Below are positions 2,102 to 59,220 of a stretch of 64,000 bases of DNA, one piece after another. Origin of the DNA: Prunus persica (lineage: Eukaryota > Streptophyta > Magnoliopsida > Rosales > Rosaceae); NCBI RefSeq assembly GCF_000346465.2, contig NC_034011.1:7532611-7596610 (forward strand). The letters are read 5' to 3'. A program made the position numbers and the translations under genes. The notes beneath the pieces are model-generated. The model was not told the DNA's origin. It saw only the letters and a list, made by a program, of their open reading frames with translations, and made no database searches. Each line of letters begins with the position of its first letter. The stretch's first letter is position 1.

Positions 2102-2987
2102 GTCAAATTACAAGTCAAAAATCACAATTCAAGTCTTAAAGGAGGAACCCTAACTTGTGGCGCAATAAAAAATCACAAGGAGAATGCAACATGGCCAGAG
2201 CTGGCATTGAAGGCCCTCGGCCCGAGCCGAGCCGTAACTTGCCCATTAGGTGAAGGATCATCCTAGCTTTAGAAGGAAAAAAAAAAAAGAAAATGTTATC
2301 GGCGAACAACCGGTAACCGTCACAGCAGTAGCCGCCATTCGACGAAGACTACAGGCGCCTATAATAGGAGTTGTAGCACTGTCCAGCTGCCAAACTGCAA
2401 CGAAAGTGGTAATCCAGCAACCAGGCTTGCGACGAGCACATCAGAAGAAAGAAAAAAAAAAAAAGGTAGCAGCTGTAGCCACCACCGCCAGTGGTGGCGG
2501 CAGCCTCGATCATGCGGCCATCATCCCATTGTTTTTGTTGCTCCAGCCTCCACGCCACAACGACAACTAGCGGGGCCCACTCCAGTTGGTACTCGCTGTG
2601 AGAAAAAAATTGAAGAGAAATAAAAACCCAAGCGTGACCTACCTTGGTGTGCGTGACGACTCCTCTCCTTGACAAGCAGTACACTACTCCAAGATCTCTC
2701 TCACAAGCTAGAATGTAAAGGATGATAAGTTTGCAATTTGAAGAGGAGTGAAGAGAAACCTTGCATTTATAAAGGTTAGGCATCCTAGGTCAAGGAGGAA
2801 TAACAAGCCTATTCCAATTAGTAGCCCAGCTCTACGAAGAAGTCAAAATCTTGCTCCAGTTAGGAACCCACCTCACAAAAGAAGCCCAACTCAAAGAAGA
2901 AAGCCCATATGCAGTTCTAAAGCACGAAAAATATTTCTCATCTCCTCTATGCCTCACAAGCGCTATGCAGAAGTTAGGGACATTTGT
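2102..2987. other. Repeat-like intergenic stretch, no gene recognised
   Basis: The stretch holds A-runs near 2278-2290 and 2450-2463 and GC-rich GCCGCC/GTAGCC text that makes Ala/Val-rich frames with no motif. It lies between the transposon-protein fragment and an LTR-like region, so it is probably internal sequence of the same dead retroelement. I see no domain in it. Confidence 0.5.
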
Positions 2988-3640
2988 GGAAACACATATT
3001 TCCCTGGTCAATAAGGAGATGACACATGAAAAAGGAATATTCCTTAGGTTAATTTAATTAGGGAAATTATGATTTAATTAAAAAAATTATCTTTGATTTA
3101 ATATAGGAATATCTCCCTAAATCAAGGAACAAATTTCTACCAAATCTCTTGAAGTAATTCCTATCATCTTATGGGTAAAAATAATCATAACCAAATAAGG
3201 ATTACTCTCCCAAACCTTAGTATATAAGGAGCCTATAAATACCTGGCTACACAAGGCATTCAAGGTAATTCTAAATTCCTCTCTAATTCCACAAACCCTA
3301 GAGAAATCACACACTCTCTCTCTCTCGCCGCCCCTCTCATCCCTCTCTCCTCACATAGCCACAAGCTACCACACATGGCTAAGGCCACCCGGCTCTCCCC
3401 TTAAGAGAAAACTCCATCCACTTTAGCTATTTTTGTATCTTTATCAAGATCTAATCGAACTAACTTAGGCATCAGAGGGCCTTTGGCCAACACCCCCCAA
3501 GTGTGGTCTATTTGCCCTTATCTATTTTGCAGGGATCGAGGAAGAGAGAGAAGGAAGATCGAAGATCGAGGAATCAACTCACAAATATTCCCTGTGCGGA
3601 ATTTTGCTCAGACATAGTTTAGTTGTTATTTTTTCCGCTC
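2988..3640 (+). mobile_element. LTR-like promoter region of a retrotransposon
   Basis: The region starts TGTGGAAACACA and carries a TATA-like TATATAAGGAGCCTATAAATAC at about 3221-3242. A transcribed-leader-like stretch follows with CT repeats (3312-3330), then CATCAGAGGGCCTTTGGCC...CACCCCCCAAGTGTGGTC at about 3471-3510. That last block is a common R/U5 feature of plant LTRs. A plausible end is near 3617 (GCTCAGACA), but I find no matching target duplication and no second LTR. It may be a solo LTR or a truncated element, and the boundaries are approximate. Confidence 0.4.
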
Positions 3641-4365
3641 TAGTTTCCATAGATTTCAATTATGTCTTTACATTTTAATGCACATTTTCATTCTTGTATT
3701 TCAATTCCATTTCAATTCAAGTCTTAGTTTACTCTTTGTCATTCTTATTAATCTCGTTTACTTTCAGCACTTTAATTCACACACTTGTCTTTAAATTTTT
3801 TACTTTATGTACTTTAATTTCCGTTATTGTCTTAATTGAATTTCCTTTTCACACTTTCTATTAAGTTTAATAATATTTAGTTTCAATTCCTTTTACTTTC
3901 TCTTTCAGTAATCTTCATTTCCATTCACTCTATATCACTTGGTTGCTCACATAAAGTATTAACCCTGAGATAGTGAAAGAACCTAGGCCATGAGGAGAGG
4001 TTCCTTGCTTGACCAAAAAATTGTTTGATTAGAATCAAATCTTGCATGCATTATCTACTCACATTTCATTCAAGCAAAATTCGTTGTTTGGTGCTGGCAC
4101 ACTTGCACACCCAACTAAAAAAGGAACAAAAAAGTCCTTTCCTTGGACTACCCAGCCGAAAAGAGGGAAACAACTAGTTTACAAAAGACTTAATCATTCT
4201 AGCAAGCCCATCATATGACCCTGTTTTTTCTTTGCCTCTCAAAATTCACTTTAATTCTCATTTCCACCCGAAACTCATTCTAGCATCTCACTGAACACCA
4301 TATTGTTAAGTCTATCAATAAATATGTTAAGCTTCATGGCATGGTACAAGTGAGGAGGGTAGGAT

Positions 4366-4369
<4 letters not shown>

Positions 4370-4420
<51 letters not shown>
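4370..4420. repeat. (GA)n microsatellite
   Basis: About 25 uninterrupted GA units. Confidence 0.95.
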
Positions 4421-4424
<4 letters not shown>

Positions 4425-4546
4425 GAGGAGAGGGTCCAGTAGTAGGGGCAAGATCGGGGTATGTGTTTGGTTGTGTAGTGTGAGATCAAGGTAAGGTTTG
4501 GCTTGGTAGTTCTAGGTTGTTTTTTATGTGTGTGGTTAGGAGGGAG

Positions 4547-4695
4547 ATAGAGTGAGGTGGTTAAAAGCACTAACCGTGCTCAATATCATATTGGGTATAG
4601 TTATGTTGTATTCTTGTGGGCATAGAGTGAGATGGATAAAAGCACTAATTGTGCCTAATATCATATTGGGCAGAGTTATGTTGTACTAATTTTTG
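4547..4695. repeat. Two-copy 75-bp tandem repeat
   Basis: AGTGAGGTGG at 4551 and AGTGAGATGG at 4626 start two diverged copies with the same order of words (AAAAGCACTAA, CATATTGGG, AGTTATGTTGTA). The offset is 75 bp. Confidence 0.8.
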
Positions 4696-7724: not shown

Positions 7725-10700
7725 TCATCAGCGTGGCCCCCATTTTGTTGGACCCAACCGGCCCAATTTTTATCGTCCTTCACCCACTTCTGCCAATTGG
7801 CTTTTAGGCCCTGCACCATCCTCTTGTGGGGCTAGTCAGTACTAGAACTATTAACAGTTTGGTCATATTCCGCTCAATGTCCACAAACTACGGATTTGTC
7901 GCGCACCTTTGTTGGCCTCCATGTCACTCAACCTACTGATTCCGCTTGGTACATGTACTCGGGAGCCACCAATCATATGACTCATGCCACTCCTTCCGTT
8001 TCATCTCATCCCTTTTCCGACCAAGTTGTTGTTAGTAATGGTGTTTCTCTTCCTATTACCAAGTACCATTTCTTTTTCTTCTTGGCATTTTTTTTTTCGT
8101 CTGTATGATGTTCTTCATGTTCCTTCTCTTTGTAAAAATCTTATGTCTATTGCTCAACTCACTCATGATCTTCTTGTTAGTATTATCTTTTATCCTTGGG
8201 GTTATGTTATTTGTGACTTACATTCTAGTAAAATTCTTTTTCAGGGACAATGTAAAGATGGTCTTTATCATGTCTTACCGTATTCTTCTCCATCCCATGG
8301 CTCTAAGCAAGCTCTCATCTCCATTCCCCATCCTCCATCTGGCATCATCATCTCAGACATCCCTCTGATCGTGTTCTTGGAAATCTAATTTCTCGATCCT
8401 TGTTAGGATCTCGTTTTTCTTTGTCTTTCAATAAATGTACTCTTCGTGCACTTGCAAAATCTACTCGTCTTTCCTTTTTGTCTCATGATCATTGGCACTG
8501 CTTCATTTGATTTATTACATTCTGATGTTTGGATGTTCCCTACTACACCTGTCTTTGGCTTCTGATATTATGTTATTTTTACGAATGATTATACTTATTA
8601 CACATGGCTTTTTCACATGCACCAGAAATCTGAAGTTTTCTCTCATTTCTCTAACTTTGTGACTTATGTGCAAACTCAATTTTCATCCTCCGTCAAACAA
8701 TTCCAAAGTGATGGCGGCAAAGAATTTGATAATTTGATGTTCAAGCATTTTTTTGCACATAAAGGCATTTTATATAGGTTCTCTTGCCCTCGTACCCCAC
8801 AACAAAATGTCCTTACTGAAAGAAAACATCGTCATATAGCTGACATAGGTCACTCTCCTTCAAACTGCCCAAATCCCACTCAACCTATGGGTTAAGCTCT
8901 TTGTATTGTTTTCTATTGGATCAATCATCTTCCTACTCATACTCTTCAATGGATTTCTCTATTTTTCAAACTATATGGCAAATGACCTGATTACTCTCTC
9001 CTTTGTACCTTTGGCTATGCCTGCTTTCCATACCTTAGGGATTATGTTTCTAACAAATTACAACCTTGTTCTTTAGCTTGTATTTTTGCAGATTACAATG
9101 AATATTATCATGGCTATCGATGCCTTCATCTTCTCACAAACCGTCTTTACACATCTCGGCATATTATATTTCATGAAGATTCATGTCCTTGTACTGCTGC
9201 TACCTCTTCATCACCACCAGTTCAAGAAATTGTTTTTGTTCCTATTGGGCCTACACCAATTAACTCTATCTCTGATAGGCCTTCCTCACCACTTCCCTCA
9301 GTCGGCCCAAGCCTACAACAACAGTCTTTGTCTTATGTATATTATGTTGAGACGCCTTTAGACTCTATCATCTTTGTAACCTAGTCTCATATCGCGTTGC
9401 CCAACCATATTCTGCCTACTTCTACTCCATCGAGCCCTGCTACGCATTACACAAACTCTCCACCACATTCTCCACCATCCACAGATTTGTCTCTCTCTTC
9501 TTCAATGCAGGCACGACCTCTTCCTATTGGTCGCTCCAGCCTAATTCATACACACTCTCGCTTTGCCATCTAAAAACCCAACCCAAAATTTTAGTCCAAC
9601 TTCTCTGCTCGTTATCCAATTCCACAAGCTCTCATAGCCGCGATTGAGTCCGAGATTGAACCCACTTGTTACGCACAAGGGTCTAAGTCTCCCCACTGGC
9701 GGTAGGCCATGCTAGACGAGTTCAATGCTCTACTTCGCCAATGAACATGGTTTCTTGTCCCCTCTTCTTCCCATTAAAATGCAGTCGACTGCAAATGGGT
9801 ATTCAATATCAAACGATGCTTTGATGGATCAATTAAAGCATGTCTTGTCGCCAAAGGGTTTCATCAGCAATCCGGGATCAATTATTTTCACTCTTTTAGT
9901 CCAGTGGTCAAGTCGACCACTATTTGCACCATTTTGAGCATTGCTGTTTCTTGTGGGTGTGGAATATGGCAACTTGACGTTAAAAAAGCTTTTATCCAAA
10001 GTTATCTCTCCGAGGCGGTGTTTATGCAACAACCTTCTGGCTTCGCTAATCCTCTTCGGCCCACTCATGTTTGCAAACTCCATAAGGCAATATATGGTCT
10101 CAAGCAAGCCCCCCGCGCTTGGTTTCAGAGGTTTAGCGCTTTTCAACTTCAGGTTGGTTTCATCGAAAGTCGATTTGATTCGTCTTTATTTATGTATCGT
10201 GATTGCTCGCATGTCATGATTTTACTCCTCGACGTCGATGATATTGTGCTTACGGGTAGTAATCCCTCTCAACTCTTCGCTTTTATTCATGCTCTTAGTA
10301 TTGAATTTAAGGTTAAAGATCTTGGCAGGCTTTATTACTTTCTTGGCATCGAAGTCTCACATCTCAAAGATTCTATTCACCTTACACAAAATAAATATAC
10401 ACTCAATCTTCTCTGGAAAAGTAATCTCCTAGAGTGTAAACCAGTCTCGACCCCCATGGCCTCCTAGACCTCTGCTTCTTGCACTGATGGGTCTCCCCTT
10501 ACTGATCCAACTCTATATCCCCAACTCGTGAGTGGTCTTCAATATCTCACCATAACTCACCCCGATATAGCCTATGCAGTTCAACATGTTTCTCAATTCA
10601 TGAATTCTCCTAGTGAGACACATTTGGAAGCTGTGAAACATATACTTCATTACCTCAAAGGAACTCTTGGCCATGGTTTATCCCTTTGCCATTCCAATGA

Positions 10701-16248: not shown

Positions 16249-16257
16249 TAATTTTAT
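16249..16257. repeat. Left target-site duplication of the Pack-MULE
   Basis: TAATTTTAT. It pairs with TAATTTTTT at 22387-22395, with 8 of 9 bases identical. MULEs typically make 9-bp duplications. Confidence 0.7.
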
Positions 16258-16338
16258 GGGAAATAGCTTAAAATGCCACCTTTTTTATAATTTTAACTAA
16301 AAATGCCATCCCTTCCCAATTTTTTTACAACTACCACC

Positions 16339-16346
16339 TATAAATA
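16339..16346 (+). promoter_or_regulatory. TATA-like box in the left TIR
   Basis: TATAAATA sits 82 bp inside the element and is followed by a CT-rich leader (TTCTCTCTCAACTC..., 16390-16460). The mirror copy in the right arm lies at about 22298-22305 on the minus strand. Promoter function is inferred. Confidence 0.5.
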
Positions 16347-17170
16347 CATTTTTATTGTGGAATGATTGTACCCATTTCAGTTTTTCAGAAATTGGGTTCT
16401 CTCTCAACTCTCTTGGCTCTATCTCTCTCCCTCGTGTAACTCTCTCTCTCTCCGACGCAATCGTCTTTCTCCCTCAGCGGTGGCTATTCATCCAAGCTTA
16501 ACTCCACGATTCACATCCACGAGGTACTGTTCATCTTCCTTGTCTTTGAAATTTGGGGTTTTTGTGAATTTGGTTTATGGTGTATGGATTTGTAAGAAAT
16601 TGATTTAGGGGTTTCTTCGAAATTGGTTTTGGGTCTCAATTCTTTGTGCCCAAGTACTAATTAATACCAGTCATGGAGAATTGTCACTGAATGAAGCATC
16701 CGTGGAGAATTGTTGGATGAAAATATCTTTGCTATATTCATGCTACTTCCTCTTGCGGGTGGTTTATGTTGAGTTAATATTTAAATTTTAAAATGCATTC
16801 TTTTTTCAATTTTGATTTCAACGTTTTCTTCAAAATTGTTTGTGTGTAAATGCAAAATAAAGGCATAGATTCTAATTGGACTATTCATTTTGCCCAAAAG
16901 CATTCCTGATGCTTGATCTTTGTCAGTGTAACAATCATGTTATGGAATTATAAGTTTGCACATACAATTTGATGGTTGTCTAATTATATGTTTCATGTTT
17001 TGGAAAATTTATGGTATTTCTTGAAACCAACCATGGTTGACTAGTTCACATTCTCATTATCAATGTTTTTTTCTTTCCCAATTTGCTTTATCCGCCATAT
17101 AGTATTGTGATTTTAATAATTATTTTTCTTATAGATGTTCACATATTAACTGGTGAAAATAATTGAACAG

Positions 17171-17510
17171 AGAAAATCCAATGATGCAGAAGTCGAGTCA
17201 CTGCGAGAGCAATACCATCAAAGGGTTGCAACACTTGAAAGGAAGGTAGGTCTTCTCATAAAGTCTTGTTTATAATCGTGCTTGGATTGATCTGGGTGTT
17301 ATATGTGCCCCTTATGTTTTTGATGAAATTGGTACTTGCCTATTTTTAATTCAGCTCCTGATAATTGGAGGGGCTATGCCAACTTATGATTGCAGGTGTA
17401 TGCTCTTACAAAGGAAAGGGACACGCTTCGGCGGGAGCAGAATAAGAAAAGTGATGCAGCTGCTCTTCTGAAGGAAAAGGATGAAATAATTAATCAAGTT
17501 ATGGCTGAAG
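17171..17510 (+). pseudogene. Captured golgin candidate 5 (TMF-like) coiled-coil exons, left copy
   Basis: Exon 17171-17245 encodes RKSNDAEVESLREQYHQR plus VATLERK (25 codons). It is flanked by AACAG|A and AAG|GTAGG. Exon 17396-17510 begins VYALTKERDTLRREQNKK, continues through LLKEKDEIINQVMAEG, and is flanked by TTGCAG|G and GAAG|GTCTC. These are consecutive exons of the long coiled-coil Golgi tether GC5, whose mammalian relative is TMF1. The intron between them is kept. The next GC5 exon is missing, and transcripts would read through into intron. This is a gene fragment, not a functional gene. Confidence 0.88.
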
Positions 17511-17765
17511 GTCTCTTTCTGTCCCTGTCTGTCTCTGTTTCTCTTGAGAAGCTCAATATGTTCTACATATTTTGTGCCTCATAGTGAATTTCCGTTACTT
17601 GTAAATCATGATTTCCTTAGCGTATTTAATTGCATTGTGTTTCTCGTTTCGGGTAGAACAGAGTTTTCAATGATAGGATTTATTTGGAAAAAAGGAATTC
17701 TGGTAGTTATGCTGTGTTCTCTATTTTTGCATGAAAGTTGAAAGTAAGATGTCCCCTCTATATGT

Positions 17766-18137
17766 GTGACAGCTTCAGGATTATGGCCTTCGTCTACTGA
17801 AAGGAAATTGCTATTTGATCCTGTTATATCTTTTATGGGACAAACAAATGAGGGAAGTAGTGTTGATTCATCACAGAAAGCTGAGTCTTCAGAGCATCCA
17901 CCAAAGGTTGACAAATCATCAGGGGAATCTGAATCTCCACAAAAACTCTCTACTGTTGAGGCAAAGGAAGGGGTCAAAACAGAAACTTTACAACACTCTT
18001 CAACTGAACAGATGGCTGATAAGGAGGAAACTGAAGTTGTCAAGGAAGAAACAGATGATAAGCATGCTGCGACGGTGGAGGAAACAGAGACTGTGGTAGC
18101 TGAGCCTGAAAAATCTGAATCTGAATCTGAAAAATAG
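17766..18137 (+). pseudogene. Captured golgin candidate 5 N-terminal exon
   Basis: A continuous frame reads ASGLWPSSTERKLLFDPVIS, then FMGQTNEGSS, followed by an acidic Ser/Glu-rich stretch ending EPEKSESESEK and TAG. The (S)GLWP....LFDPV.SFMG motif is the start of the second exon of GC5, which lies far N-terminal to the coiled-coil exons. Here it lies downstream of them, so the order is scrambled relative to the parent. An acceptor-like GTGTGACAG precedes it. The stop may come from truncation at the capture boundary. Confidence 0.8.
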
Positions 18138-18271
18138 AAAATCTATATGTTGGGGGTTTTCTGGCTAGCTAAAAATTGTGAGAAATGATGAATCCATCTG
18201 ATTGCAGCCTATTTAATGTTTAATACCTTCATTAAAAAAAGGTTGTTGACAGTGCTTTGACTATCTTGCAG

Positions 18272-18340
18272 ATTATAATGGCAAAACCAGCAGGTGGCCC
18301 TAGTGAGAGAGATCAGCATGCAGGGATGGATGAGGACTAA
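18272..18340 (+). pseudogene. Captured last exon of CCT8 (T-complex protein 1 subunit theta)
   Basis: After the acceptor CTATCTTGCAG the frame gives IIMAKPAGGPSERDQHAGMDED and a stop. The QIIMAKPAGGP segment is the conserved C-terminus of the cytosolic chaperonin subunit theta. The following 300-400 bp (to about 18700) look like its 3' UTR. Only this exon is present, with part of the preceding intron. Confidence 0.78.
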
Positions 18341-18849
18341 TTTTGTGTGTATGACAATTGACTATCTTTGCTTGTATTGCTCTATGTTAGGGATCTTTTG
18401 TTCCATTTTAGTAACAATTTTGTTTAGGAGAAAAAGAAACATATTGCAGTTCATGCTTTGTAAATGCCATCTTCTGTTATGATGGACACGTGGTATGCTC
18501 TTGTTGGGTAGGTTTTGGATTGAAACCATGGTCGAGTGCTTGAGCCATGTTTAGTGTGAAGCTTGAATGGATTTTCTTTTCTGTTGTATTTGGCCCTTGT
18601 CTTTTCAAGCATGCCAAAAATCATCCTAGTTTTGTAATATGTGGTTTGTGTCCAATTAATTTACTGTGGACCTTGCATTTTTGTACCCAATATTTGATAG
18701 CTGCGTTCTTTTGAACGAAGATTCATTGAGGGAGAGAATTACTTTCCTTTTGAATATGAATCGATGTGCAACTCCAACTATCATTTCAAAGGTCAACATC
18801 AATTCATGCTAATATAAGGATGGATAACAATTGTCGTCTCCATGAGATT

Positions 18850-19142
18850 CGAATTCAGGATTACTTTTCAACGAAGTGGAGACTCTGTTATTAGACCAAA
18901 TGGCCATTGACATACGATATAATAGCAATATTAGGCCAATACATGTACACTATAGAGGCAATATTAAAGCAATATAACCACAATACGATAGCAATAATAT
19001 TACAATATCACCTATAAAAATATAATTATTGTCCACTTATTGCTGATTTTTCACATGTTCAGAAATTTTGTTCTCTCTTAGCTCACTCGGCTCTCTCTCT
19101 CTGGCACATCTCTCTCTCTCTTTGGTATCTGTCTATCGCAGC

Positions 19143-19192
<50 letters not shown>

Positions 19193-19690
19193 GTGCAACT
19201 CTCTCTTTGCTCTCTTTCTGTAGCGCAGCTCTCTCTGTCTCTCTCTAGCTTCGTTCTGCCTCTTTCTCCCCTTATTCGCTCTCTGTCTCTTTATTCATAC
19301 CTTCCTTTTTTTGTAAATTATTTTTTAGTTGTTATTATTTTTTAAAATAATTTCTTACAATGTCTTACGATGCAATTATGATGCACCTGACTGCCTGTTT
19401 TTGAAAGGCACGTTGTTTCTTTCTCCTCCTCGTCTTCTTTTTGAATGCAATATGGCCCAAACAGTAAACCCATTGATGAGCTGTAGTCAATATACATACA
19501 CTAGAGAGGCAATATTAGGTCAATATAATGGCAATACGATAGCAATAGCATTACAATATACATGCAATACGATGGCAATATGCATACAATATTAGTACAA
19601 TACACAGGCAATATTAGTACAATACACATGCAATAGTACAACAATATTAAGTCAATCTACATACAATACACACACATCCATTACAGACTA
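18850..19690. repeat. GCAATA-rich repeat block with a promoter-like core
   Basis: Two direct repeats of about 70 bp lie at about 18939-19010 and 19492-19558, 553 bp apart. Both read ATACA..ACTA.AGAGGCAATATTA...CAATACGATAGCAATA. Between them, 19010-19110 resembles the promoter leader of the TIRs (CACCTATAAA...ATTGT...TTCAGAAATT...GGCTCTCTCTC). A long (CT)n follows at 19149-19191. This may be a nested, related element. Confidence 0.6.
19149..19191. repeat. (CT)n microsatellite
   Basis: About 21 CT units. CT-rich words continue on both sides. Confidence 0.95.
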
Positions 19691-20183
19691 CAATTTAGAC
19701 ATGGAAAATAAATCGCCACCGAACCCTAACAGTACTATCCCAAGAAGCAAAAATTATTTCTTTCATAAAACTTGACAATTCAATTGTTATTACATAGTCA
19801 ACCAATCTTTGCTCTATTACATACATACTTCCCACCTATAATTATAAATAATGGAGAGCTCACAAATTCTACTAATTTGATCTTAACTTCATCAATTTGT
19901 TCTTCGTTGTATGAGTTAGCTCTCCCTTCTTGCACATTTTCCAAGTTGTTCTGTTCTCCTCCCGTGTAGCAATATCAGCAACAACAGGTTATCTACATAT
20001 CTGAAATCATAACTGCACATGATTCTCAATTAGCAAAGAGGAAAACCATTTTCTTTTATAACTTCGGTTCTGAAATATATAACAAAATGCAAATATCTTT
20101 GCTTCTGAAAAGGAGCAAAAGTTTGTCAACCAATTCATAGTAAAAACGAAGAAACTAGTGAACATAACCAGAAAAATGCTAAC
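19691..20183. other. Pack-MULE interior, origin not recognised
   Basis: The minus strand has a short frame with EEQIDEVKIKLVEFVSS that could be another captured exon, but I do not recognise it. The rest continues the intron-like DNA after the second CPN60 exon. Confidence 0.4.
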
Positions 20184-20506
20184 CTGCAAAACCAACTCCA
20201 ATACTTTAACCACATCATTAATACTTGAGATTTTCTTCTCATGGATTATGATTAGAGGATTTTCCAATTCCTATCAGCACATACACAAGTTTGAAGATAA
20301 TCAGCATCAAGCAAAAAGGGACTTGAGGTGCTGCTAACTTTAACAAGCAGCCCTCTAACAGTTTCAAGACATAGTTATCGCTGAGTCAAACTAAAACTTA
20401 CACATTTCTGATTGTTCTGGTTGGTGATGAAATAAGGGGATATGTAGCCCCTGTCTAGCTTCATTCCCTCAACAACCTCCAGCTCGTTGTCCAATGTTTT
20501 CCCATC
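20184..20506 (-). pseudogene. Captured mitochondrial chaperonin CPN60 exons
   Basis: Exon 20506-20402 (35 codons) begins [18 protein letters not shown] and continues [17 protein letters not shown]. Exon 20270-20184 (29 codons) begins ELENPLIIIHEKKISS and continues INDVVKVLELVLQ. Both have AG acceptors and GT donors in the right phase, with an intact 131-bp intron between them. The segments are consecutive in mitochondrial HSP60/CPN60. Substitutions such as LELVLQ at the end suggest decay or a boundary. Capture retained the intron, so it was from genomic DNA. Confidence 0.88.
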
Positions 20507-20761
20507 CTGCAAAAATTAACATAGTGTGAAGCTTACATGTTTTGGGTATCATTTGGGAATAAAAAACTAAAATAAAATTATTTGCCCTCCAATATATTTC
20601 TGTACAAATTTCATAAGACCCATACATACCTCACTTTAAAACAACAATAAAAAGAAGCTGATATCATCCAGATTTCAGCCCTTGCAATATGGTAACTACA
20701 CTAATATGCCTATGACAAATCTGCTGACTAGAAACAGACATAGGCAAATAAAGTCACATAC

Positions 20762-20855
20762 CCATCAGCACAGCCACTGTCCAGGTCGTGATGAGATACA
20801 AGCCAATAGACGACCACAACCAAATTGCTCTTCAATATGCTGGTCAAGAGTTGTC
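20762..20855 (-). pseudogene. Captured 40S ribosomal protein S8 fragment
   Basis: The minus strand reads [20 protein letters not shown] then SRPGQ, the conserved C-terminal part of eS8. It then shifts frame: a 2-base deletion turns the expected CGRADG into an out-of-frame stop. A GGGTATGTG donor-like sequence follows. Confidence 0.85.
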
Positions 20856-20912
20856 TTTATCAAACGAAATCAAAGAACCAAAATTTTAAAGATTCTAACA
20901 TAAATGAATTAC

Positions 20913-20944
20913 CTGAAGTTTAGTAATCAACCCTTTCTTCTCTT
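20913..20944 (-). pseudogene. Captured golgin candidate 5 mini-exon (right side only)
   Basis: The 32-base segment between TTTTTTGCAG and GTAATTC encodes EKKGLITKLQ, the golgin segment expected a little downstream of the MAEG exon. The exon that should lie between them (EELSKKQAAQ region) is missing, so this side has an internal deletion. It is absent from the left side, which places the boundary of the shared arm. Confidence 0.75.
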
Positions 20945-21031
20945 CTGCAAAAAAGAAGGAATTTCCATAATTATTGATATGATTGCATAAAGAAACCCTC
21001 CTCGCATCCACAATAGAACATTGGCTACGTT

Positions 21032-22386
21032 GAAATTCACTATGAGGCACAAAATATGTAGAACATATTGAGCTTCTCAAGAGAAACAGAGACAGACAGG
21101 GACAGAAAGAGACCTTCAGCCATAACTTGATTAATTATTTCATCCATTTCCTTCAGAAGAGCAGTTGCATCACTTTTCTTATTCTGCTCCCGCCGAAGCG
21201 TGTCCCTTTCCTTTGTAAGAGCATACACCTGCAATCATAAGTTGGCATAGCCCCTCCAATTATCAGGAGCTGAATTAAAAATAGGCAAGTACCAATTTCA
21301 TCAAAAACATAAGGGGCACATATAACACCTAGATCAATCCAAGCACGATTATAAACAAGACTTTATGAGAAGACCTACCTTCCTTTCAAGTGTTGCAACC
21401 CTTTGATGGTATTCCTCTCGCAGTGACTCGACTTCTGCATCATTGGATTTTCTTTGTTCAATTATTTTCACCAGTTAATATGTGAACATCTATAAGAAAA
21501 ATAATTATTAAAATCACAATACTATATGGCTGATAAAGCAAATTGGGAAAGAAAAAAAAATTGATAATGAGAATGTGAACTAGTCAACCATGGTTGGTTT
21601 CAAGAAATACCAGAAATTTTCCAAAACATGAAACATATAATTAGACAACCATCAAATTGTATGTGCAAACTTATAATTCCATAACATGATTGTTACACTG
21701 ACAAAGATCAAGCATCAGGAATGCTTTTTGGCAAAATGCATAGTCCAATTAGAATCTATGCCTTTATTTTGCATTTACACACAAACAATTTTGAAGAAAA
21801 CGTCGTTGAAATCAAAATTGAAAAAAGAATGCATTTTAAAATTTAAATATTAACTCAACATAAACCACCCGCAAGAGGAAGTAGCATGAATATAGCAAAG
21901 ATATTTTCATCCAACAATTCTCCACGGATGCTTCATTCAGTGACAATTCTCCATGACTGGTATTAATTAGTACTTGGGCACAAAGAATTGAGACCCAAAA
22001 CCAATTTCGAAGAAACCCCTAAATCAATTTCTTACAAATCCATACACCATAAACCAAATTCACAAAAACCCCAAATTTCAAAGACAAGGAAGATGAACAG
22101 TACCTCGTGGATGTGAATCGTGGAGTTAAGCTTGGATGAATAGCCACCGCTGAGGGAGAAAGACGATTGCGTCGGAGAGAGAGAGAGTTACACGAGGGAG
22201 AGAGAAGGGCTGAAGAGAGAGATAGAGCCAAGAGAGTTGAGAGAGAACCCAATTTCTGAAAAACTGAAATGGGTACAATCATTCCACAATAAAAATGTAT
22301 TTATAGGTGGTAGTTGTAAAAAAATTGGGAAAGGATGGTATTTTTAGTTAAAATTATAAAAAAGGTGGCATTTTAAGCTATTTCCC
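21032..22386 (-). repeat. Right terminal inverted repeat of the Pack-MULE
   Basis: 1355 bp, the inverted counterpart of 16258-17592. Small differences include an extra GAAGGGCTGAAGAGAGAGAT-like insertion near 22203-22225 and scattered substitutions. Confidence 0.92.
21114..21453 (-). pseudogene. Captured golgin candidate 5 coiled-coil exons, right copy
   Basis: The copies of the two exons lie at 21453-21379 and 21228-21114. Differences from the left copy include Q to E (REEYHQR), A to T and K to M (KEMDEI). The acceptor before the first exon is changed from ACAG to ACAA, so normal splicing into it would be lost in this arm. Confidence 0.88.
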
Positions 22387-22395
22387 TAATTTTTT
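22387..22395. repeat. Right target-site duplication of the Pack-MULE
   Basis: TAATTTTTT, matching 16249-16257 except for the eighth base. Confidence 0.7.
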
Positions 22396-28647: not shown

Positions 28648-29995
28648 GATTCTAGCGTAAAGAGAAACGTAATGTTCCTGGTATCATGGAAAGGAGCAAA
28701 AGCATGCAAGTAGCTAGCCTGTCATCGACACATGTATCCACCAGCCGCTACTTTTGCTAAAGAAAAAAAAAAGATCAAATCTCTTTTTAATGGAATGTAC
28801 TCCTTCCTCCCCATCCCATTCTCTCATTTCTTCCATATTGTATGTACGATTTGCTACTAAATTGCCTCATCCACAGAGTGTGCTCCATGATCCACCCCCC
28901 ACTTTTCTTTATTTTATTATTCTTATGTTTTCATCCTTTTCCTTCTTCGCTATGTATCTAGACAAAACCTCCATGGATGCATGTCAAAGAAGCATGCAAG
29001 AATAAATTATTACTTGTGTACATTAGCGCTGGGAAGATCTAGGGTACTTACGTAATATTAACTAGTTATACATTTTGATTGTAATTGCTGTGAATTTTCC
29101 ATGCAGGAGGCTAGGCATTGGCACGAAACTAGTGAGACATTTAGAAGAATGGTGCAAGGAAAAGGGAGCCGAGTATGTATATATGGCCACAGACTGCACC
29201 AACGAGGCCTCAATCAATCTGTTCACTATCAAATGTGCATACAAAAAGTTTCGTACACCCACCATTTTGGTCCAACCAGTCCACGCCCACTACAAGCCAA
29301 TATCTTCATCAGCCAATACTAATATTGCAATTGTTCAGCTGCCCACAACCCTAGCAGCCTCAATCTACCGCCAACTCTTTTCCCAATCATCAGAATTCTT
29401 CCCCAAAGACATAGACGCCATTTTGGCCTGCAACCTCAGCTTGGGTACTTTCATGGCCCTACCAGTAAAGTCCCTCGCAAAATGGGACCCACAAAAGTGG
29501 ACCCTGCCTCCAAACTTCGCCATCCTTAGTGTTTGGAACACCAAAGAAGTGTTCAGGTTACAAGTGAAGGGAGTTTCAAGCCTAACATATGCATGCTGTG
29601 TAGGTACAAGGCTTGTAGATGCATGGCTTCCATGGCTCAGATTGCCTTCGTTTCCTAATTTCTTTAAGCAATTTGGGGTTTATTTCATGTATGGCTTGCA
29701 CATGGAAGGGGAGCATGGAAATCGGCTGATGAAGGGTTTATGCAACTTCGTGCATAACATGGCTAGGGATGATCGTGGATGTGCTGCTGTGGTCGCTGAG
29801 GTGGGCCAGAGGGACCCAGTTCGAGAGTCGGTCCCACATTGGAGAAAGTTTTCATGGGCAGAAGACACGTGGTGTGTCAAGAAGCTTGATGAAGCAAAGC
29901 AAGGAGGAGAGAGATCATCATCAGATCAGTTTGATTGGACCAACACTCCATCTTCTTCTTCGTCGCATATTTTTGTTGACCCTCGTGACTTTTAG
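27505..29995 (+). CDS. HOOKLESS1-like N-acetyltransferase (GNAT family)
   Basis: Exons 27505-27720, 28016-28143 and 29107-29995 join in frame to 410 codons, the usual family length. The first exon gives VVREYDKERDKAAVEEMERR..GDPICRIRHFP, the HLS1 N-terminus. The second gives GVIRGCVKE...KLAYILGLRVSPTH. The third begins RLGIGTKLVRHLEEWC (acetyl-CoA binding motif A), continues with EYVYMATDCTNEASINLF, and ends FVDPRDF. HLS1 proteins act in the nucleus on apical hook formation, auxin and sugar responses, probably through histone acetylation. The split codon at the exon 2/3 junction reads TGG (Trp) where relatives have Arg in HRRxGIG, so the first position of the RxxGxG motif is changed. ATG 27505 is the first in-frame ATG after the TATA box. 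Intron 2 contains three long CT/GA microsatellites. Confidence 0.93.
28148..28194. repeat. (CT)n at the start of HLS1-like intron 2
   Basis: About 23 CT units, beginning only 5 bases after the donor. Confidence 0.95.
28509..28555. repeat. (CT)n in HLS1-like intron 2
   Basis: About 23 CT units. A (GA)n tract follows 50 bp later, so the two can pair as a hairpin. Confidence 0.95.
28606..28645. repeat. (GA)n in HLS1-like intron 2
   Basis: About 20 GA units, complementary to 28509-28555. Confidence 0.95.
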
Positions 29996-56624: not shown

Positions 56625-57734
56625 CTAATGTGCAGCTGGTATCTCAAAACCCGGTAAGGGATGAATTCTGGGAACAGTGGCAGTGCTTGCACGGTAATCT
56701 GCTTTCGGTTTGAAGTAAGAGACACCATATGCATAGCCCAAAGATGAGTTGACCACCTTCAACTTGGCATGACCCGCTTTTGATGGTTGAGGCGGCGCTA
56801 CGAATGGATGAGACAAGAGCCTTTCCGCTGTTGATCTTTCACAGGACCTCATGGCAAGGCAACTCTTGAGAAAATCCCTGGCCACATCTGAGATCTCGGC
56901 CGGAATTTTGGAAGTACGTAGATGATCAAACACCGTCACGTCGACGGAATTGTCAAGATCACAACCAGGCTTCAAATCCCAGGGGGAGTTTCCGGTTAGC
57001 ATCTCAAACACAATACAACCAAGAGCCCAAATATCACAGGACTGATCTTGTTTGTTATCAAATAAAGCCTCTGGGGACAGATACCTAGGAGTGCCTCTCC
57101 ACCGACTATAGTTGTCCTTGGTTTTCTTAGCCAACCCAAAATCTGCAATCTTGGCTACAAAACTAGTTGTAGCACCAGACCTAGCTGTAGTAGTGGTAGT
57201 GGTAGTGGTAGTGGTAGTGGTAGTGGTAGGCACAAGCAGAATGTTGTCCGGCTTCAAATCGCAGTGAACATAGTCACACTTGTGAATGTGTCTAATCCCT
57301 TCAAGAATTGATCTTGTATATCTTCTAACATCATCTTCAGGCAATCCAAGACCGTTGGATTTTTGTATGAGGCCATCAAGGGTTCCTCCAGAAGCAAATT
57401 CTAACAACAAGTTGTAGACCTTGTCACCCTTGTCTGTGGTTGTGGTCTCTTCACCGAAGCGCTCGATAACGAAAGGGCAGCCCTTGATCTCAAACAGAAC
57501 CCCTGCCTCATGTTCAATAGACTCCGAAGCAGACACCTTTGCCGATTTCACCGCCATCATCGCAGGCAAATTGACCATACGGCTAAACTCACCCCTTCTT
57601 CGTTTCTTGGGAGTAGCGAGAAAAACAGAACCAAAGCTTCCTTCTCCAATAAACTCCCCTCTCTGCCAGTGCCCTCCATGACTCCACATGCTGTGCTTTT
57701 CCCCTTCTAATTCTTCTTCAACCTTTCTTTTCAT
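56625..57734 (-). CDS. MAPKKK (MEKK-like) serine/threonine protein kinase, single exon
   Basis: 369 codons without introns. The kinase domain spans about residues 24-312: glycine loop GEGSFGSV (30-37), MAVK with Lys63, catalytic loop HCDLKPDN (157-164), DFGLAKK, activation segment WRGTPRYLSPE, and then DIWALGCIVFEMLTGNSPW. HCD in place of HRD and the single-exon structure fit the small plant MEKK-like kinases of the MAPKKK17/18/20 type, which act in ABA and stress signalling. Between the catalytic loop and DFG lies a run of 14 Thr (170-183), encoded by ACCACT repeats and absent from kinases I recall. It would enlarge the loop between beta strands 7 and 8. The start at 57734 is followed by a basic, acidic N-tail. 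The C-terminal tail after the kinase domain is about 57 residues and has no known motif. Confidence 0.88.
   Translation of the reverse strand: MKRKVEEELEGEKHSMWSHGGHWQRGEFIGEGSFGSVFLATPKKRRRGEFSRMVNLPAMMAVKSAKVSASESIEHEAGVLFEIKGCPFVIERFGEETTTTDKGDKVYNLLLEFASGGTLDGLIQKSNGLGLPEDDVRRYTRSILEGIRHIHKCDYVHCDLKPDNILLVPTTTTTTTTTTTTTTARSGATTSFVAKIADFGLAKKTKDNYSRWRGTPRYLSPEALFDNKQDQSCDIWALGCIVFEMLTGNSPWDLKPGCDLDNSVDVTVFDHLRTSKIPAEISDVARDFLKSCLAMRSCERSTAERLLSHPFVAPPQPSKAGHAKLKVVNSSLGYAYGVSYFKPKADYRASTATVPRIHPLPGFEIPAAH
57188..57230. repeat. GGTAGT hexanucleotide repeat encoding poly-Thr
   Basis: About six GGTAGT units on the plus strand (ACCACT on the coding strand). Change by units of six keeps the frame. 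Confidence 0.95.
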
Positions 57735-59220
57735 TCTTCTTCTTCTTCACTCAGTTCTCAGTTCTCTGTTTTCTCTCAACAAGGAAATACGTATTTCTCT
57801 GAAAAAAAATTAGCGGCTTGCTTGATTGATTGTGCCCTATAATGCTTTATAGTATTGGTTTAGGGAATAGGAAGATGTATGGAATGTGTAGTTTATTAGG
57901 GTTAACGAGATGTATAAAGTCGGTCAGGTTTAATTGATGCTTTTGTAGGTTTTGATTTGTGACGTAGCCACCAAGCTACTAGCTAACAGACAAGAATTTC
58001 CACAATACTTTATCTTCGTTTTTTTTTCAATATCGTTTTGTTATTGGTCTGAATTTTTTACCGTTTGGAACGGAGAGAGGAGAGAGGAGATTTGACAGCT
58101 GTGGAACGCAAAGATGGAAACCTTTCCTAACAAGAAAAGGAGTTAAATTTTTTCTTATTACTTTTTTGATGGAAGAAAAGAAGTTCAAATTTATTAAAGA
58201 AACGTTACCCTCCGCTTATCACAAGATAATATGGTAATTATCTACACAACCACATTTTATTGTAGCAAGATTTTAGAGACTTGGATATCAAGGTTGTAAC
58301 AAATGGATACATTGGGAAATCTTTCCTGACACGTAGACACACAACAACATTCTTGATGATCTCACGAACGGAATGAGAAAAATGTAATATGTAATGGATG
58401 TGGAAAGAAGAGGAAGAAAAAAAATCGCAAGAACATGAAAAAGTAATATGTAATGGATGTGGAAAGCCTATTCTAAACAATATATAGACCACTGAAACCT
58501 ACAACAAGTGAAAAACAACTCAAATATTTGTATTTCAAACACAAAGTCATATATAATGTAACGACTCAAATTATGATTTTGGTCTTTGCAGTTTGGTTAA
58601 GCTCCATTTTGGTCACTCTATTTTTAATTGCTACAATATGAATCATGTAGTTTACTAATTATTACAATTTAAAGACAAAGAATTAATTATGAAAACTTTT
58701 TATATAGAATTAGCACACTATATGGGTGTCTATGATGTTTTCACCCTTTACAAGAACCCCAGTTAACTCACTTAATAATTATGTAAAAAAAAGTGACGTA
58801 ATTAAGTTATAGTTCTTAAACTACAACAATTAATGAACTATAAATAATTTTCAAGTTACAACAATATTATTCAGAATTCTCTTCTAATTGATGCTTGTAA
58901 CTGGGATTAGGCATTACATCTTCCCGTTCTTTTTCATTTGGTGATTAATAAAGTTCCCTCGTATTGTCGAGTTTCCTACTATTTGATTTAAACTATAGCA
59001 ACCAAAATCGTAATTTGACAAAATTAAAAATTAGAAAAGGTAAATAAAACCACTCAATAAATTGTCAAAAGCGTCCAAGTTCAATTGTCTCAAAGTTTGA
59101 GGACCCAACAGCAACAGAGTCCGTAAAGAATTCCTTATCATCATCATCTAATCCATTTCGGCTTTTTTTTCCCTCCTCTTCTTCCTCACAGCAAAACCAA
59201 ATCAACCACAAAACACAGAG
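57735..59220. other. Intergenic between divergent MAPKKK and LPA3-like genes
   Basis: The two genes face away from each other, so this is a shared upstream region. A 24-bp direct repeat (GTAATATGTAATGGATGTGG core) occurs at about 58384 and 58443. No TATA box is clear for either gene. No other gene is seen. Confidence 0.6.

Follow-up and report, generated by a model that had tools for sequence, protein, structure and literature searches.

A Pack-MULE of Prunus persica with four-gene cargo in two divergence layers and a conserved CAATA array

How pieces of four unrelated host genes come to lie within one transposable element, and what such an element retains while its contents change, are questions raised by a locus of Prunus persica. 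The locus occupies positions 16258-22386 of the window, the 64-kb stretch of DNA analysed here (C3:7532611-7596610 of the 227.5-Mb genome). The original prediction described it as a Mutator-like element (MULE) with inverted ends and a 9-bp duplication, carrying exons of golgin candidate 5, CCT8, CPN60 and RPS8 with their introns. The present analysis makes it highly probable that the locus is a non-autonomous MULE with long terminal inverted repeats (TIRs), one of six near-identical copies mobilised in trans, that its lineage captured the gene pieces stepwise as passengers, and that the ends and an internal CAATA array have been kept. Among the titles listed in literature searches none describes this element, which is not proof that it is undescribed.

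Element boundaries and terminal inverted repeats

The element begins with GGGAAATAGC at 16258 and closes with CTATTTCCC at 22386. Both ends, and the duplication at 8 of 9 positions, were confirmed by end and flank comparison.

16249-16257, no strand: left target-site copy TAATTTTAT, from flank comparison
22387-22395, no strand: right target-site copy TAATTTTTT, an 8/9 match to the left copy TAATTTTAT
16258-17592, forward strand: left TIR of about 1.33 kb, three abutting inverted-repeat blocks (99%)
21032-22386, reverse strand: right TIR, 99% to the left arm
16258-16669, forward strand: base TIR proper, common to other subfamilies, reaching element position 412 in locus L022 and 377 in subfamily III
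16670-16680, forward strand: 11-nt filler at the junction of base TIR and golgin DNA, whose last 7 nt plus TTG (TGGAGAATTG) reappear in the golgin DNA 29 bp further in

Agreement at 8 of 9 positions occurs between random 9-mer pairs drawn from the flanks with a frequency of 0.0011. The flanks of 17 end pairs, from the window element and 16 related loci, match at 9/9 in 12 cases, at 8/9 in three (the window, L011 and L016) and not at all in two (L022 and L023); L021 counts among the 9/9 flanks, yet its flank is plain poly-A. Four more loci stand outside this tally, the second end being absent from the fetched piece.

Inverted ends are indeed present, but they are far longer than had been implied, and the golgin exons inside both arms had not been noted. 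A short-TIR reading is ruled out by the arm length of 1.33 kb. The arms lie about 3.4 kb apart and differ at 2/423 and 10/912 aligned sites; two thirds of each arm is captured golgin DNA, the family TIR itself being confined to the outer 0.41 kb.

Cargo and donor loci

The gene pieces and one stretch of family sequence lie within the element as follows.

16681-17592, forward strand: middle exons of golgin candidate 5 with introns, in the left TIR, 99% to C3:4787079-4787991
17589-18127, forward strand: upstream-exon block of golgin (exon 2 here), 99.3% to C3:4789319-4789856
18132-18428, forward strand: CCT8-like last exon (IIMAKPAGGPSERDQHAGMDED) with the preceding intron and 3' end, 94.6% to donor locus L056
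18559-18996, forward strand: family-internal sequence, also present at about 91% identity in two large elements that bear transposase matches
19986-20584, reverse strand: CPN60 exons with introns, 92.8% and 88.9% to donor locus L055
20581-20851, reverse strand: RPS8 exon piece with the following intron, assigned from donor locus L057, the donor frame and PF01201
20846-21946, reverse strand: golgin middle exons of the right side, reaching down to C3:4786718

The four gene identities are borne out by donor alignments, open frames and Pfam matches, several of the latter below cut-off. The golgin donor locus (C3:4786718-4789856) was identified from the exon order there and from PF12329 (TMF_DNA_bd), which matches one donor exon with E 4e-5, below the curated cut-off; we take TMF to correspond to golgin candidate 5. 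Exon 2 is out of gene order, since it follows the middle exons in the element and lies upstream of them in the gene, and it holds a 129-residue open frame in all six copies. At 20946-20951 a stretch of about 180 bp, retained in all five sister copies, has been lost from the window copy. For RPS8, PF01201 matches with E 0.0014, below cut-off.

The CPN60 and CCT8 names come from peptide reading and from the PF00118 match that immediately precedes each of the two donor pieces (C1:4011808-4011984, 33.2 bits and below cut-off; C3:16151052-16151237, 46.1 bits); a Pfam search of the two CPN60 donor frames gave no match. About 800 bp of the CPN60 donor are missing at 20089-20093. CCT8 has the least certain of the four donors. 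A second CCT8-like match, at 94%, lies at C1:20730528-20730668. CPN60-like matches on C8 and C3 (75-83%) were taken for paralogues, and C2:2115616-2116117, which is 95% identical to element positions 4091-4594 across the CPN60/RPS8 junction, was taken for an element fragment and not for a donor.

The golgin, CPN60 and RPS8 pieces still contain introns between their exons, as judged from the alignments with exon limits read from the frames, and capture therefore took place at the DNA level. Donor-like loci lie at four places (C3:4.79, C3:16.15, C1:4.01 and C4:14.75 Mb), so that the shared ancestral locus by which the original prediction could have been refuted was not found as a gene locus. The data support a MULE-type element whose cargo was captured as DNA from four host loci that are not linked.

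Classification

The element displays the hallmarks of a Pack-MULE. The target-site duplication lies in the 9-11 bp range (8/9 in the window), the TIRs are long (about 1.33 kb, 99%), and the host gene pieces have retained introns and identifiable donor loci, less certainly for CCT8. A transposase of its own is lacking: the longest frame overlapping the element has 178 residues and is antisense to golgin, and no match inside the element was found among 150 scored PF10551 candidates (of 710) or 150 scored PF03108 candidates (of 337). The ends are common to transposase-bearing MULEs, as judged by coordinates and a 23-mer match, the open reading frames (ORFs) of these being known by position alone.

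In the excerpts of the papers cited here and below, Pack-MULEs of rice, maize and tomato are likewise non-autonomous, with long TIRs, a 9-bp duplication and host gene pieces, and multi-locus cargo is known (PMC8903248, PMC4858842); in 5-10% of putative genes derived from MULEs, two or more parental genes contributed to the ORF (PMC4858842). Unlike those described, the present element measures 6.1-6.3 kb over its copies and carries four genes in two divergence layers, with a single gene making up most of the TIR. Falling Stones (FaSt), a Mutator miniature inverted-repeat transposable element, is also a non-autonomous Prunus element, but by its description it is 349 bp long with no cargo described (PMC13359793). 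The element is thus a Pack-MULE of known kind, unusual in its four-gene, two-layer cargo and in TIRs built largely from one captured gene.

Copies, subfamilies and order of capture

The window copy belongs to a set of six (subfamily I), the other five (L009-L013) being full copies with the same cargo at about 98%. Subfamily II (L014-L017) has no golgin; its ends are 81-85% alike, and its CPN60-RPS8 unit matches at 95%. In subfamily III (L018-L021 and L023) the ends recur together with part of the block around the CAATA array, and subfamily IV (L022 and L024) shares element positions 2395-4118 at 95-96%, in loci that hold KIN17 frames. The long KIN17 open frames lie at L022:6196-7185 on the reverse strand, with a WH and two SH3-like domains, and at L024:2610-3350 on the forward strand, with a zinc finger and a WH domain. 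Three further arrangements are known from match coordinates alone, except for 61 bases read of one type VI copy: golgin exon 2 with CCT8 (type V), golgin middle exons in the arms with CCT8 (type VI), and CCT8 to RPS8 (type VII). As several searches scored part of their candidates, all copy numbers given here are minima. Equal block edges in other subfamilies were dropped as possible shared breakpoints, since it is the query element that determines where a match ends.

The cargo was therefore not collected by this specific copy: it occurs together in the five sister copies and as overlapping subsets in other subfamilies, which indicates assembly in the lineage before this copy arose. All pieces do lie together in one 6-kb element, as would be expected if this copy had captured them in a single event or if they derived from a composite host locus. 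Such an origin is extremely improbable, given that five sisters share the cargo, that the CPN60-RPS8 unit occurs without golgin in subfamily II, that donor-like loci lie at four places, and that the divergence layers differ about fivefold. A single capture event is ruled out by the sister copies and these layers.

The layers are defined by Kimura two-parameter distance to the donors, the sampled loci being assumed to be the actual sources, which is doubtful for CCT8. The older layer comprises CCT8 (4.9%), CPN60 (5.1%) and RPS8 (5.9%), and the younger layer golgin (0.6-1.4% in the three longer pieces); two short pieces are outlying, CPN60 at 19986-20093 (11.1%, 107 bp) and golgin at 20846-20951 (3.9%, 106 bp). 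Within the CPN60-RPS8 unit, the distance to the window copy is 0-0.5% for the sister copies and 4.4-5.1% for subfamily II. The two layers point to stepwise capture, in which CPN60, RPS8 and CCT8 would have been taken in first.

The younger golgin DNA would then have entered both arms to form two thirds of the TIRs. In all six copies the left and right arms differ by a 3-bp insertion at element position 563 and by the base at position 836, and the distance between the arms of one element equals the left-right distance between elements (0.0099/0.0099 for the base TIR, 0.0091/0.0090 for golgin). Golgin was thus already part of either arm when the six copies began to spread, and recent homogenisation of the arms is ruled out.

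Golgin may not have been captured directly, since subfamily I could be a recombinant of two older elements, one of type VI, with golgin middle exons in its arms, and one of type V, with golgin exon 2. In its favour, the golgin DNA of one type VI copy runs past the junction used in subfamily I (in the 61 bases read), exon 2 open frames reach 202-239 residues in six type V copies vs 129 in subfamily I, and the element contains an internal TIR-like relic:

19006-19102, forward strand: TIR-like relic, oriented like the left TIR, 74% alike

The relic alignment scores 128 vs a maximum of 85 over 200 shuffles, with a contribution from its CT-rich part, and 74 vs 50 against the first 143 bp of the TIR alone. 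Lying between CCT8 and CPN60, it recalls MULEs with internal solo TIRs (PMC3310237), but it is short and about 74% alike; it might mark a fusion of two elements. Since no golgin block stands clearly nearer to the gene than the others (about 98-99% in all), direct capture would explain the data as well, and types V and VI are known only in part; recombination comes slightly short of an even chance.

The golgin inverted repeat might also form a natural hairpin that silences the golgin gene. The repeat spans about 0.9 kb at 98-99% to the gene and is present in six copies and two type VI loci, but the arms are about 3.4 kb apart, and such a role seems improbable.

At the junctions, donor sequences overlap by 4 bp (golgin/golgin), 5 bp with adjacent mismatches (inside CPN60), 4 bp (CPN60/RPS8) and 3 bp (RPS8/golgin), for which the chance frequencies are 0.024, 0.008, 0.021 and 0.065, respectively. 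In animal Pack-TIRs, microhomology was reported at one or more breakpoints in 67.6%, with a median of 2 bp (PMC8277862). The overlaps and the filler fit template switching, and we infer that the lineage probably took in host DNA by this route during repair or replication.

Probable autonomous relatives

Ten elements of 12 to 29 kb contain a match to PF03108, the Mutator DNA-binding domain, between facing ends that match the 23-bp terminus (150 scored of 337 PF03108 candidates). Bracketing was established by coordinate comparison among the ends listed, the best 100 of 252 and the best 100 of 237. In nine of the ten the PF03108 match lies 1.60-1.68 kb from one end, and two also hold the region corresponding to window positions 18559-18996, at about 91%. 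These large elements are probable autonomous kin, and their transposase, acting on matching ends, may have mobilised the Pack-MULE in trans.

PF00118 (TCP-1/CPN60 chaperonin) matches were also observed in six of the ten (C1:4359875-4376837, C2:2364570-2381045, C2:9255658-9272330, C4:4907781-4923439, C1:20875120-20887336 and C1:3952597-3979415), covering profile positions 161-356 and/or 457-487. Chaperonin genes seem to have been captured repeatedly by this element family.

Several observations weigh against the history proposed here, of stepwise capture through template switching and mobilisation in trans. A search with the joined flanks found no empty site among the 40 of 233 candidates scored, which were the two flanks and short stretches resembling a repeat of the left one. 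The CCT8 donor candidate is divergent in its last residues and may be a paralogue or pseudogene. Distances to the donors are larger for subfamily II (CPN60 6.0-6.9%, RPS8 9.0-9.4%) than for the window copy, so that divergence is a rough clock and not a clean one. Clear microhomology is absent at three of the seven junctions: about 4 unexplained nucleotides separate golgin exon 2 from CCT8, the base-TIR/golgin junction holds the 11-nt filler, and the later deletion in the window copy has a strict overlap of 1 bp (6 with one mismatch). One of the four microhomology junctions is itself a deletion inside CPN60. Among the large relatives, transposase ORFs were located by coordinates alone, no PF10551 match fell between the listed ends among 150 scored of 710 candidates (coordinates compared by eye), and no scored PF03108 match fell within a further six or more facing pairs spanning 11-28 kb.

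The CAATA array

Between the CCT8 and CPN60 pieces the element carries a short motif repeated in phase, a feature absent from the original prediction.

19488-19668, forward strand: main CAATA array, 17 slots of 11 bp on one strand, with CAAT in 16
18926-19007, forward strand: smaller CAATA cluster with 11-bp phasing, from a motif scan
19290-19731, forward strand: block found in 18 of 20 fetched relatives (77-99.6%), only in part in subfamily III

Triple phased CAATA, with at most one mismatch, occurs 22 times in the window (0.03 expected), always within 18915-19007 and 19488-19668. The array is present in 18 of the 20 fetched family loci, which were chosen for TIR similarity, whatever their cargo, with 13-18 CAATA per 250 bp vs about 0.5 in the rest of the window. 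It was not found in L027, L028, the donor pieces or the rest of the window.

In the window array, 2 of 85 core cells depart from the majority vs 51 of 102 spacer cells. The array phase is anchored on CAAT, which counts against this contrast by favouring the core and makes the comparison across subfamilies the fairer test. There, over nine representative rows out of 19, core columns are conserved at 0.89-0.91 and spacers at 0.78-0.80, a difference reached by 11/220, 3/213 and 6/279 mask shifts; to its disadvantage, subfamily III alone supplies four of these rows.

The array may be a degenerate minisatellite, neutral, functionless and inherited by descent. An 11-bp period is prone to slippage, the number of units varies, and the block around the array is conserved too. 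Neutrality fits less well with a near-invariant core between scrambled spacers, with the presence of the array in 18 of 20 loci despite cargo replacement, and with a core that is, modestly, more conserved than the spacers between subfamilies; we regard it as a serious possibility with somewhat less than half the weight. We consider that the family keeps its two ends together with this one-strand, 11-bp-phased array, most likely as an array of protein-binding sites.

A precedent is offered by VANDAL21 of Arabidopsis, in which VANC21 binds a 9-base motif that lies in one orientation, densely, in non-coding and often tandemly repeated DNA, and brings about a loss of methylation (PMC5735166); VANC proteins contain DUF1985 (PMC5735166). 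By layout the CAATA array resembles a VANC target: short motifs, all oriented alike, are densely packed in non-coding DNA of the element and tandemly arranged as in VANDAL/VANC arrays (PMC5735166, PMC10398659). Among the relatives, a DUF1985 ORF occurs in L028. That locus has one family TIR (89-91%) with DUF1985 and Peptidase_C48 ORFs, and its fetched piece is without a second TIR and without the array. The DUF1985 ORF (L028:2500-3084) and the Ulp1-type Peptidase_C48 ORF (L028:5209-5724) lie about 2.0 and 4.7 kb inward from the TIR. The array differs from VANC targets in its motif, CAATA every 11 bp vs YAGTATTAY; moreover, VANDALs are non-TIR MULEs (PMC13317346), whereas the present TIRs are long. 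That the array is the cis target of a DNA-binding factor encoded by the family, either the transposase or a VANC-like protein with DUF1985 that counters silencing, and that the Pack-MULEs persist by keeping it, is a tentative proposal and, in this specific form, rather unlikely.

Other features of the window

Outside the element, positions 9778-10467 hold a 229-residue open frame that, by eye, reads like a Copia-type reverse transcriptase. Frames at 29066-29995 and 56625-57746 read, again by eye, like an N-acetyltransferase and a protein kinase, and are perhaps host genes.

Implications

With captures layered by divergence and donor-like loci in the same genome, the steps of capture, TIR growth and amplification can be placed in order. 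The array bears on why some gene-scavenging transposons persist, as the ends and one putative binding array were kept and much of what lies between was replaced. If the array is indeed such a target, the Pack-MULEs of this family would hitch-hike on anti-silencing while exchanging their cargo, and VANC-type systems would extend beyond the non-TIR VANDALs of Arabidopsis to cargo-carrying, long-TIR MULEs in another plant family.

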